The translations under genes and the position numbers were made by a program. Under the pieces are notes generated by a model, which worked only from the letters and a program-made list of their open reading frames with translations, did no database searches and was not told the DNA's origin. Below are positions 1,457 through 4,771 of a DNA stretch of 64,000 nucleotides, piece after piece (within the stretch, counting starts at the first letter, position 1; the number at the start of each line of letters is the position of its first letter). Origin of the DNA: Thermococcus celer Vu 13 = JCM 8558 (GTDB lineage Archaea > Methanobacteriota_B > Thermococci > Thermococcales > Thermococcaceae); contig NZ_CP014854.1 in assembly GCF_002214365.1 (NCBI RefSeq), forward strand, positions 930,001 through 994,000, written 5' to 3'.

Positions 1457-1525
1457 GATTTCATCCCGCCTTAAGTTGCCCTTTCCCTAATTAAATTTTT
1501 AGGTACACTACCTTTCACCAAAAAC

Positions 1526-1535
1526 GTTTTAAAAC
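1526..1535 (+). promoter_or_regulatory. TATA-like box of the fluoride-responsive cluster
   Basis: GTTTTAAAAC lies 25-30 bases upstream of the first base of the riboswitch stem at 1554, the spacing expected between an archaeal TATA box and a transcription start. The aptamer would therefore form the extreme 5' end of the mRNA. Confidence 0.5.
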
Positions 1536-1552
1536 GCCTTTCGGATGTTCCA

Positions 1553-1616
1553 CCGGGCGATGGCGTCCGCCCGGGCTTCGAGCCGAACCGCCCTCCAGGG
1601 CTGATGACGCCTGTTC
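1553..1616 (+). promoter_or_regulatory. Fluoride riboswitch (crcB-motif RNA)
   Basis: The sequence carries the key parts of the fluoride aptamer in order. Stem CGGGCG/CGCCCG (1554-1559 with 1568-1573) encloses the conserved AUG and a GCGUC loop (1563-1567), which can form the pseudoknot with GACGC at 1606-1610. Stem GCCCU/AGGGC (1590-1594 with 1597-1601) is followed by the conserved UGAUG (1602-1606). An extra small hairpin GGCU-UCG-AGCC (1574-1584) sits in the variable linker. The layout agrees with what I recall of the Thermotoga petrophila aptamer. Downstream, GGCGGU (1635-1640) within the ribosome binding site is complementary to ACCGCC (1587-1592) of the aptamer, so translation could be masked without fluoride. 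Confidence 0.87.
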
Positions 1617-1643
1617 TCCGCAAAACCATGAGGAGGCGGTGGA

Positions 1644-2510
1644 ATGGGCTCGAAGCTTTACGAGATGGGGAGATTCATCAACGCCGATTCCCTCGTCAGG
1701 TACATCGAGGAGAGGCGCCACGAGGACGGCGGTTACTGCTTCGTCAGCGTCCTCAGCGATACCAACGTCAACGACACCTACTACGCCATCAAAATCTACG
1801 ACCTCCTTGGACTGGATTTCCCGGAGCCGGAGAGGACTGTAGAGTTCCTTGAGAAGACCATACAACCCCAGACGGCGGTCGTTGCGATAGCGATGGCCAT
1901 GGAGGGTTTGGCCCTGCTCGGGGCCGGGGACGTGGCGAGGGAGCACCTCGACATCGTATTCACCAAGTACAACCCGCTCGAGGGTAAGTTCGCGGTGGGC
2001 CTCGGCGGAAGCGAGGAGTTCGGGACGGCGACACCGCTTGAGGCAACCTACTGGGTAACCAAGGCCTTCAAGGCCATCGGCCACGATTTCAGCACCGATG
2101 AGAGGGAGGCCATAAGGGCCTTCGTCATGAAGTTCAGGAACGGAAACGGCTTCGGCGTTAAGGGCCCGACGACGACCATGACCTACCAGGCCCTTTACGT
2201 TCTCCACGCCCTCGGCTACAGGCCGCCGAAAACCCCCCACTTCCGGAACTGCGAGCTCTGCGGCGACTGGGGCGGCTTCACCGAGGTCCCCTACAGTCTT
2301 CCGCCCTACATCGAGCCGACCTTTTACGGGACGAGGGGGCTTGGGCTCCAGGATGAAACTCCTAACTGCCCCCGGAGACACGTCTGGTTCATACGCCAGC
2401 TTCAGAACGCCAACGGCGGCTTCAGGAGGAGCCTCGAGCTCGGCATCTCGAACTTCCAGAACACATACAGGGCGCTTGCGGTGCTCGACTTCATGATGCG
2501 GTTCCTCTGA
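1644..2510 (+). CDS. Prenyltransferase/squalene-cyclase-like alpha-toroid protein
   Basis: A 288-residue protein with repeated helical-toroid features seen in prenyltransferase beta subunits and terpene cyclases: EDGGYCF near residue 28, NVNDTYYAIKIYDLLG, a central TPLEATYWVTKAF, GNGFGVKG, and a C-terminal NANGGFRRS followed by NTYRALAVLDF. I see no complete zinc or DxDD catalytic set, so the reaction is unknown. A CELCGDWGGF segment near residue 208 offers two cysteines. The ATG follows AGGAGGCGGTGGA directly. It is the first gene behind a fluoride riboswitch and starts a four-gene run that leads to crcB, so a role in the fluoride response is inferred from context. Confidence 0.72.
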   Translation: MGSKLYEMGRFINADSLVRYIEERRHEDGGYCFVSVLSDTNVNDTYYAIKIYDLLGLDFPEPERTVEFLEKTIQPQTAVVAIAMAMEGLALLGAGDVAREHLDIVFTKYNPLEGKFAVGLGGSEEFGTATPLEATYWVTKAFKAIGHDFSTDEREAIRAFVMKFRNGNGFGVKGPTTTMTYQALYVLHALGYRPPKTPHFRNCELCGDWGGFTEVPYSLPPYIEPTFYGTRGLGLQDETPNCPRRHVWFIRQLQNANGGFRRSLELGISNFQNTYRALAVLDFMMRFL

Positions 2511-2519
2511 GTGGTGGGC

Positions 2520-3209
2520 ATGGACCTGATAGGGATTTACCTGATGGACGCCCTCGGAGAGGGCTGTCCCGTCTGCAGGATACTTCGCAAGTACGAGGAT
2601 TCGGAGATAGAGATCATCCTTTACGAGCACGTGAACGACCCCGATGTGAGGGAGAAGTTCAGGGAGAGCCTCGGCCTCTGCACCCACCACGCATGGAAGA
2701 CCCTTGAAAAAGCTTACTCGGAGCCACTGCTGGGACCGCTGGGCGTGGCCATGATCTACGAGCACATGCTGGGGGTTTACGCAGACCTGCTGGAAAACGG
2801 CACGGCCCCCGAGGAGGGCGAGTGCTTCCTCTGCAAGCTGATGGAGGATAAGGAGAGGAGCACCGTGGAGGCGTTCGCCGATAGGATCGGGGAGCTCCTG
2901 CCCGAATACGAGCGCTCAGGGTCGATACTGTGCAAACGCCACTACGAGATGGTCCTCGAACTTCTCGAGAGGAAGAATCCAGAGGCGGCAGAAAAGCTGA
3001 GGGAGCTCCAGATTAGAAAGCTGAAGGGCCTCGGGGAGAGGCTCGGCTCTTTCATCGATAGGTTCGATTACCGCGCGAAGGAAGCGCCGAAGAAGGAGGA
3101 AGTATCCGCACTCCCGCTGGCGATAGAAGCATTGAAAGGTCTTGAAACGGGCGTAACGGTAAGAAAAAGGAGGAGCAAAAAACAAAGGGGGATACTCCCG
3201 TGGAAATAG
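2520..3209 (+). CDS. DUF6062-like cysteine-rich protein
   Basis: About 229 residues, cytoplasmic, with three cysteine clusters: CPVCRIL near the N-terminus, CTHHAW near residue 60, and CFLCKL around residue 102, then a CKRHYE. The repeated CxxC and CxxH pattern suggests metal or thiol binding. The middle is helical and the tail is very basic (KRRSKKQRG). This matches what I remember of the DUF6062 family, whose function is not known. A GTG at 2511 is also possible, but the ATG at 2520 has GGTGGG just ahead. It lies 9 bases after the toroid gene and overlaps the next gene by 10 bases, so it is translationally coupled in the fluoride-switched cluster. Confidence 0.6.
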   Translation: MDLIGIYLMDALGEGCPVCRILRKYEDSEIEIILYEHVNDPDVREKFRESLGLCTHHAWKTLEKAYSEPLLGPLGVAMIYEHMLGVYADLLENGTAPEEGECFLCKLMEDKERSTVEAFADRIGELLPEYERSGSILCKRHYEMVLELLERKNPEAAEKLRELQIRKLKGLGERLGSFIDRFDYRAKEAPKKEEVSALPLAIEALKGLETGVTVRKRRSKKQRGILPWK

Positions 3210-3499
3210 AGGTCACTGACGAGGAGCTCAAGACCATACGCGAGAACAGGCGGGAAATAGAGGGGAGATTCCAGGATCTGGAGGGACTTGAGAGGACGCT
3301 CCGGGTCCTAAAGCTTCGTCTCCTCCGTGAAGAGGAAGAGAGGCTGGAGAGGAAGCTGGAAGAGATGGAGTACGGCTATAAGGAACTCCTCGAGTTCGAG
3401 GAGATGGCAAAGCGGGACAAGGAGTTCCTGATGGAGTTCAGGAAGGAGCTCAGCGAGGAGAACAGGAAACTGAGGGAGAGGCTCGGGTGGAAGGGATGA
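3200..3499 (+). CDS. Small coiled-coil protein
   Basis: A 99-residue protein that is almost entirely charged heptad-like helix (LERTLRVLKLRLLREEEERL and on to ENRKLRERLG). It starts with GTG inside the end of the previous gene and ends in a 4-base overlap with the next, so it belongs to the same operon. I recognise no family. The C-terminal ENRKLRERLG closely resembles the ENKRLRERLG near the end of the next protein, so the two may pair through coiled coils. A structural or adaptor role is inference. Confidence 0.6.
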   Translation: MEIEVTDEELKTIRENRREIEGRFQDLEGLERTLRVLKLRLLREEEERLERKLEEMEYGYKELLEFEEMAKRDKEFLMEFRKELSEENRKLRERLGWKG

Positions 3500-3921
3500 A
3501 GATAACGGTGAGGCCGAAGAGGGGCTGGAGAAGGGTAACCTTCCGGATCCCCGACGAGACCTTCGAGAAAATCGGGGAACTCTGCGAACGCTACGGTTTC
3601 CGGGTGGATGAGGCGCTCAGGATAATCCTCCTCCACGGCTACCTCGACGACGACCCCGAGGCCAACGAAACCACGTTTAAAAAGCTCCAGGAGGATATAG
3701 GGCGGCTCAGCGCGGAGCTCTACGAGCTCGAAGGGAAGTGGTCCCCCCTGAAGTTCAGCTCGTACTACCTTGCCATGGACGACCAGAACCTGGCGATACA
3801 GCTTTCGGCGATGATAGCGGAGAACAAGCGCCTCAGGGAACGTCTCGGCCTTCCGCAGAAGGACTACGGTGAGGTCGAGGAGAAGATACACTACTACCTG
3901 AACTTCGGGCGGGGAAAGTAG
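3496..3921 (+). CDS. Predicted ribbon-helix-helix-like plus coiled-coil protein
   Basis: A 141-residue protein beginning MKITVRPKRGWRRVTFRIPDE. The pattern of a short strand (RRVTFRIPDETFEKIGELCERYG) followed by helices resembles the ribbon-helix-helix DNA-binding fold (VTFRIPDE, then EALRIILLHGYL). The rest is coiled coil ending ENKRLRERLGLP. The ATG overlaps the previous stop (ATGA), which beats the GTG at 3487. It may be a regulator or an adaptor; no family was recognised. It is the last of the four genes behind the fluoride riboswitch, with crcB starting 93 bases later. Confidence 0.55.
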   Translation: MKITVRPKRGWRRVTFRIPDETFEKIGELCERYGFRVDEALRIILLHGYLDDDPEANETTFKKLQEDIGRLSAELYELEGKWSPLKFSSYYLAMDDQNLAIQLSAMIAENKRLRERLGLPQKDYGEVEEKIHYYLNFGRGK

Positions 3922-4014
3922 TCGCATCCCTTCCTGAATCTCTGTATACATTCGCACCAAAACCTTAAATAGCCGGGTCCAAACGCCCCCCGGATAAAGG
4001 AAAGGGTGAAGACC

Positions 4015-4771
<757 letters not shown>

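Follow-up and report, generated by a model that had tools for sequence, protein, structure and literature searches.

A Thermococcales fluoride riboswitch whose conserved target is very probably a toroid protein gene, with the first codons of that gene as a candidate part of the switch

The fluoride riboswitch carried by Thermococcus celer and most other Thermococcales very probably has as its direct, conserved target the gene immediately behind it, which encodes an alpha/alpha-toroid protein (gene A). The usual view of fluoride riboswitches is that they control exporters. By the reading that we favor at this locus, and that we consider likely as a whole, the switch is directed at the toroid and uses the first codons of its gene as part of the expression platform, genes B to D are coupled to the toroid, crcB is a separate unit, the toroid is a fluoride-stress protein and proteins C and D form a complex.

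The window analyzed is a stretch of 64,000 nucleotides from the 1.87-Mb T. celer genome, in which a single fluoride riboswitch was found. This riboswitch, at 1547-1620, matches the full RF01734 model (1-64) with 48.9 bits against a gathering score of 34 (E 1.7e-10 for the window), and its transcript is expected from the sequence to start near 1547-1556. The features of the locus are as follows.

1525-1534, plus strand: TATA-like element CGTTTTAAAA of the riboswitch transcript, read from the sequence
1547-1620, plus strand: fluoride riboswitch aptamer RF01734 (Rfam model match)
1573-1584, plus strand: extra hairpin GGGCTTCGAGCC inserted in the aptamer and complementary to gene A codons 1-5 (Rfam alignment)
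1606-1611, plus strand: GACGCC, presumed pseudoknot strand of the aptamer and predicted partner of the Shine-Dalgarno region without fluoride (fold predictions)
1632-1640, plus strand: Shine-Dalgarno region GGAGGCGGT, conserved upstream of the toroid ATG in almost all relatives
1644-2510, plus strand: gene A, alpha/alpha-toroid protein of 288 aa (PF00432, gene-order survey, codon conservation, AlphaFold)
2520-3209, plus strand: gene B, DUF6062 protein (PF19538, invariant Cys/His)
3200-3499, plus strand: gene C, coiled-coil protein of 99 aa, probable partner of D
3496-3921, plus strand: gene D, 141 aa, ribbon-helix-helix-like N-terminus and coiled coil, with a paralogue elsewhere in the genome; by ORF reading it starts at 3487 or 3496
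3957-3974, plus strand: promoter-like sequence CCAAAACCTTAAATAGCC of crcB, with the same type of element before crcB in relatives
4015-4386, plus strand: crcB, fluoride exporter (PF02537, E 2.8e-28; TIGR00494)
4391-4771, plus strand: DUF190 (PII-like) gene, next after crcB (PF02641, E 1.2e-38)

The first-pass annotation had described a riboswitch followed by four packed genes, crcB and DUF190, and this arrangement was confirmed by the RF01734, ORF and Pfam matches. Its statement that all overlaps and gaps lie below 10 bases held for A-B (gap of 9 nt) and C-D (overlap of 4 nt from the ATG at 3496), with a B-C overlap of 10 nt. D and crcB are separated by 93 nt that include an archaeal promoter-like sequence. 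Divergent from the riboswitch promoter lies an archaemetzincin-type peptidase gene (PF07998; 755-1456, minus strand), and a gene of this family adjoins the riboswitch in most Thermococcus relatives.

The conservation of the locus was surveyed in 94 Thermococcales genomes, 74 of them of good quality, and gene order was read at 66 loci. The riboswitch was found in 88 of the 94 genomes and the toroid in 90, including 74 of the 74 good-quality genomes; 15-45 nt separate the aptamer match from the start of the toroid gene. At the loci read, the gene that immediately follows the primary riboswitch is gene A, the only one of A to D to keep this place consistently. The order A-B-C-D-crcB-DUF190 was present at 38 of the 66 loci, A-crcB-DUF190 at 12, A-C-D-crcB-DUF190 at four and A-C-D without crcB nearby at six, the remaining loci being variants; gene B occurs in 57 of the 94 genomes, and C and D are mostly gained or lost jointly. 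The earlier proposal that the four genes act as one fluoride-response set, for which a gene order not conserved in relatives had been named as a refutation, was thus supported in part, for the toroid, whose place behind the riboswitch is strongly conserved, whereas B, C and D are optional, unequally linked to the switch and only partially conserved in order. That the gene set has been kept behind the riboswitch argues that the toroid, at least, is very probably a fluoride-response protein.

Matches to the toroid profile in the named genome collection were confined to Thermococcales, and a profile search of 21 non-Thermococcales genomes of the phylum detected no orthologue, with a weak partial match in G099 only. 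The toroid gene is broken or split by stops in three genomes, G068 (C6), G076 (C1) and G080 (C1), and is therefore not indispensable.

Evidence for the level at which the switch acts was provided by the aptamer itself. The Rfam alignment places an insert of 11 nt, gggcuucgagc, in the toroid-linked aptamer outside the Rfam consensus, and this insert is complementary to the toroid start ATG GGC TCG AAG C (codons 1-5 of gene A are ATG GGC TCG AAG CTT). The full 10 of 10 pairs between insert and codons are present in 61 of 63 leaders, a count that overstates the number of independent events because the leaders are related by descent, making the codon comparison the safer test. Complementarity of comparable extent occurs at just 3 of the 1556 ATG sites of the window.

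Codon 2 is GGC and codon 3 is TCG in 63 of 63 toroids, and codon 4 is AAG in 59 of the 59 sequences that keep the lysine, the four others carrying GAG. Mean codon identity over the other conserved toroid columns is 0.57, with none of the 135 at 0.97 or more, and the other conserved Gly, Ser and Lys columns average 0.50, 0.49 and 0.60, respectively. The change from AAG to GAG, which replaces Lys by Glu and reverses the charge but keeps a G-U pair, was seen in four genomes of four genera, while the silent alternative AAA, at the cost of a G-C pair, was never seen at codon 4 in the 63 leaders. Since silent positions would vary if the peptide alone mattered, their invariance indicates that selection is not on the peptide only. 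A role of MGSKL as a lipidation or targeting signal was rejected, given that the silent sites are fixed. The conserved MGSKL very probably reflects the RNA, and the codon pattern suggests that translation of the toroid is very probably the level at which the switch acts.

A different explanation would be that the first codons serve translation efficiency, or specify an N-terminal signal MGSKL, and match the aptamer by coincidence. Start regions are often selected for weak structure or codon choice and MGSKL is invariant except for K/E, as this explanation would have it. However, silent positions are fixed here as nowhere else in the toroid gene, a charge-reversing change that keeps pairing is tolerated where a silent one that breaks it is not, and the complement sits exactly in an insert that is unique to toroid-linked aptamers; together with the second switch described below, which follows the same principle with different sequences, these observations make coincidence highly improbable. 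Two leaders show some independence of codons and aptamer: in L059 the codons are kept and the insert is changed (8 of 10 pairs), and G012 (L084) has lost the 5' part of the aptamer as well as crcB and retains the toroid with switch-type first codons. The codons are therefore not strictly tied to the aptamer.

An alternative structure that pairs the Shine-Dalgarno and start region with the aptamer is present by fold prediction and codon conservation. Folding at 85 C, in a thermodynamic calculation that ignores the pseudoknot and co-transcriptional folding, placed the codons in the insert helix with a mean probability of 0.90 and paired the Shine-Dalgarno region with the aptamer with a probability of 0.52, most Pyrococcus-type leaders reaching about 0.9 or higher for the latter. 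The predicted Shine-Dalgarno partner includes GACGCC (1606-1611), which we take to be the strand of the pseudoknot that fluoride binding requires; binding of the ligand would then compete with pairing of the ribosome site.

In the mechanism that we propose, the insert hairpin at 1573-1584 would pair with codons 1-5 of gene A when fluoride is absent and GACGCC would pair with the Shine-Dalgarno sequence, hiding the ribosome site. Binding of Mg-fluoride would fold the pseudoknot, freeing the Shine-Dalgarno sequence and the start codon and turning toroid translation on, and B, C and D, where present, would follow by translational coupling. A fluoride response and presumed translational control have been attributed to a Thermococcus riboswitch (Speed et al. 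2018, as cited in PMC8241225).

An alternative is that the helix between insert and codons forms in the translated state with fluoride bound, where it might for instance serve as a platform presenting the start codon, and not in the off state. The insert lies outside the aptamer core, and we infer that it could coexist with the folded aptamer. Yet a helix of 10-11 bp over the first codons would hinder initiation, and the paired codons of the second locus mimic the pseudoknot strand and are incompatible with a folded aptamer, which leaves this arrangement quite unlikely and an off-state helix as the preferred reading.

The second fluoride riboswitch was found in 13 genomes, 10-15 nt before a NuoH/HyfC-like gene that heads a set of NuoH/HyfC, HyfE, HyfF and HyfG-like (49-kDa type) genes.

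L097-L109: second riboswitch loci, in G021, G043, G047, G065, G041, G067, G049, G046, G048, G050, G054, G056 and G059

The aptamers at these loci are without the 11-nt insert in the Rfam alignment. Their genes begin with GTG ACG CCN TTG AAC CCG GAA, where GACGCC copies the pseudoknot strand and CCCGGAA complements the UUCCGGG at the 5' side of the aptamer. The paired codons ACG (T2), AAC (N5), CCG (P6) and GAA (E7) are invariant where the residue is kept, whereas the third position of codon 3, which is unpaired, occurs in three variants. No CxxC nickel ligands were found in the seven copies of the 49-kDa-type subunit that were read, and on this basis the complex looks like the Ehr (energy-converting hydrogenase-related) type rather than a formate hydrogen lyase. 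A fluoride riboswitch before formate hydrogen lyase genes was noted earlier (Weinberg et al. 2010, PMC2864571); the Thermococcales loci resemble that case in placing the riboswitch before a NuoH/HyfC-HyfE-HyfF-HyfG-like set, and differ from it in the seven 49-kDa-type copies that are without CxxC.

Additionally, some genomes encode, immediately before the second riboswitch, a small coiled-coil protein of 76-100 aa that is similar to the C-terminal half of D, and in others such a gene lies between D and crcB.

L101:705-941, L103 (reverse strand), L106:668-901 and L107:642-878: small D-like coiled-coil gene near the second riboswitch
L130:10398-10700 and L133:10416-10688: small D-like coiled-coil gene between D and crcB

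The exporter gene crcB passes the TIGR00494 equivalog cut-off in T. celer (91.4 bits against 80.45). The first-pass annotation had set it under the shared switch, and the survey found it to be largely uncoupled. A plain fluoride-export operon would place crcB on one riboswitch-controlled transcript, with A to D as passengers or accessory factors of the exporter, and it is true that many genomes have crcB within 100 nt of the block; in some the two overlap or almost touch, and co-transcription is therefore likely there. Against such an operon, crcB is located elsewhere in G004-G009 and G019, where riboswitch and toroid remain adjacent, and in G012 the toroid stays although crcB is missing along with the aptamer. 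In genomes of genus g3, at least tens of kilobases lie between crcB and the block, no riboswitch was detected at crcB, and riboswitch and toroid stay together; Pyrococcus-type genomes have crcB at another locus. In about eight genomes the block and crcB are split by a Na+/H+ exchanger gene (PF00999, 429 aa) on the opposite strand, an orientation for which this gene was rejected as a member of the riboswitch operon.

L032:3250-4539, minus strand, and also L035, L041, L049, L050, L052, L057 and L062: opposite-strand Na+/H+ exchanger

The exchanger gene of L041 is interrupted by an OrfB-type transposase gene. A promoter-like sequence precedes crcB in relatives (CCCAAAATCTTAAGTAGGG, corresponding to CCAAAACCTTAAATAGCC in T. 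celer), also where the exchanger gene intervenes. In T. kodakarensis, aptamer RNA was detected in growing cells upstream of TK0513, and the start site of crcB (TK0514) was mapped between TK0513 and TK0514; the authors termed the position of the aptamer before TK0513 surprising and did not analyze it further (PMC4247193). These data make an export operon unlikely as the general arrangement, and we infer that crcB is expressed mainly from its own promoter, with the toroid gene as the conserved target of the switch.

The description of gene A as a prenyltransferase/squalene-cyclase-like toroid was supported by its PF00432 match (E 2.5e-9), and the alpha/alpha fold with GGF-type repeats that defines the superfamily was recovered in the match, the model and the fold comparison. 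The AlphaFold model is a single toroid (pLDDT 90.5, pTM 0.90), and among solved folds it is closest to farnesyl and geranylgeranyl transferase beta subunits (Z about 24, 262 aligned residues, rmsd 2.6-3). Such a fold invites the view, raised earlier as membrane lipid repair, that the toroid repairs membrane lipids during fluoride stress as a protein prenyltransferase or a squalene/terpene cyclase. The VIA-align comparison with FTase/RabGGTase beta subunits (Z about 24, 262 residues) is in keeping with it, as are the squalene-hopene cyclases that Foldseek lists too. The catalytic residues, however, argue otherwise: among 66 toroids the prenyltransferase zinc motif D-x-C is not conserved, being present in six, and the class II terpene cyclase motif DxDD was found in none. 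By repeat matching, the positions of the zinc ligands D-x-C and H read E224-P-T226 and N273. No alpha subunit was recognizable among the neighboring genes read, and no evidence for lipid repair emerged, so that we regard this role as very unlikely.

In comparison with the FTase/GGTase beta subunits (PF00432), the toroid thus shares the fold over its whole length but not the D-x-C motif, at about 15% identity. We propose instead that it would be a cytosolic fluoride-stress protein with the protein-prenyltransferase beta-subunit fold and a different active site. Many polar residues are invariant among toroids, which suggests a ligand cavity. As a best guess, the protein may bind or convert a small metabolite, polar or isoprenoid, that the cell would fail to handle when fluoride blocks Mg-phosphate enzymes.

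Gene B was correctly named DUF6062-like (PF19538, E 8.9e-20); its 71.6 bits lie well above the cut-off of 27, and the family is named in no paper of the literature searched. The protein carries two CxxC plus CxxH pairs (C16, C19, C54, H57 and C102, C105, C138, H141) that are strictly conserved in relatives and look like zinc sites. The locus search for relatives of gene B was empty, and a PDB sequence search gave no significant match. Metal-fluoride sensing, which had been suggested as a role, found no evidence; gene B, like C and D, is linked to fluoride by position alone.

The coiled coils announced for C and D were found in both, but the N-terminus of D is predicted to be beta-alpha-alpha and ribbon-helix-helix-like (strand 14-17, helices 20-33 and 37-47). 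A PDB sequence search with D returned coiled-coil matches only, its match to the aCcr1 model (E 0.003) is under the cut-off of that model, and the Foldseek matches to Arc, VapB-type proteins and CdbA are not significant (E about 0.8 or above). The shared ENxxLRERLG motif is real in T. celer (ENRKLRERLG and ENKRLRERLG), but relatives share only about EN..LR, and their C proteins mostly read ENKRLRKELEE. A paralogue of D, about 33% identical, occurs in nearly every Thermococcales genome, accompanied in the loci examined by a C-like partner and near an HhH-GPD DNA glycosylase gene.

L137:4390-5955 (T. celer genome, outside the window), and also L138 and L141: D paralogue with C-like partner

Because the D paralogue has a C-like partner, C and D were probably duplicated together. 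In G090 (L133:9544-10275), C and D share a single ORF (243 aa), which may be a natural fusion or reflect a sequencing error in the metagenome assembly. The joint gain and loss, the paired paralogues and this single ORF bear out the earlier suggestion that C and D belong together, and support the view that they probably form a complex. This complex would be an optional accessory in which D may provide a ribbon-helix-helix dimer.

Altogether, these observations can be extended, as a tentative reading that we consider possible, to at least two separate first-codon fluoride switches in Thermococcales, one with the order-specific toroid as the primary effector and one on an Ehr-type complex, with export mostly outside riboswitch control. 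The conserved target of the switch is an unstudied protein that was limited to Thermococcales in the genomes searched, and fluoride toxicity in hyperthermophiles may strike an unexamined process. This is among the few natural riboswitches that have been tested in archaea, and the pairing of codons and aptamer would give it a concrete mechanism accessible to mutation. The group is genetically tractable and this type of switch is already an expression tool, for which constructs should retain the first codons. More generally, a conserved N-terminal peptide can be the signature of an RNA.

Already known are the class of the riboswitch, its position upstream of TK0513 and, at second hand, the fluoride response in T. 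kodakarensis. The locus in T. celer resembles that of the TK0513 crcB-motif riboswitch in having the same aptamer class before a crcB-adjacent gene, and a separate start site for crcB (PMC4247193). The literature searched describes neither the order-wide link to the toroid nor the insert nor the codon pairing, although Speed et al. 2018 may discuss the platform. The switch proposed here would share with the bacterial fluoride riboswitches, which use terminator or ribosome-site platforms, the logic of an on-switch and the competition for an aptamer strand, and would differ from them in that the coding sequence itself is part of the platform and matches an insert in the aptamer.
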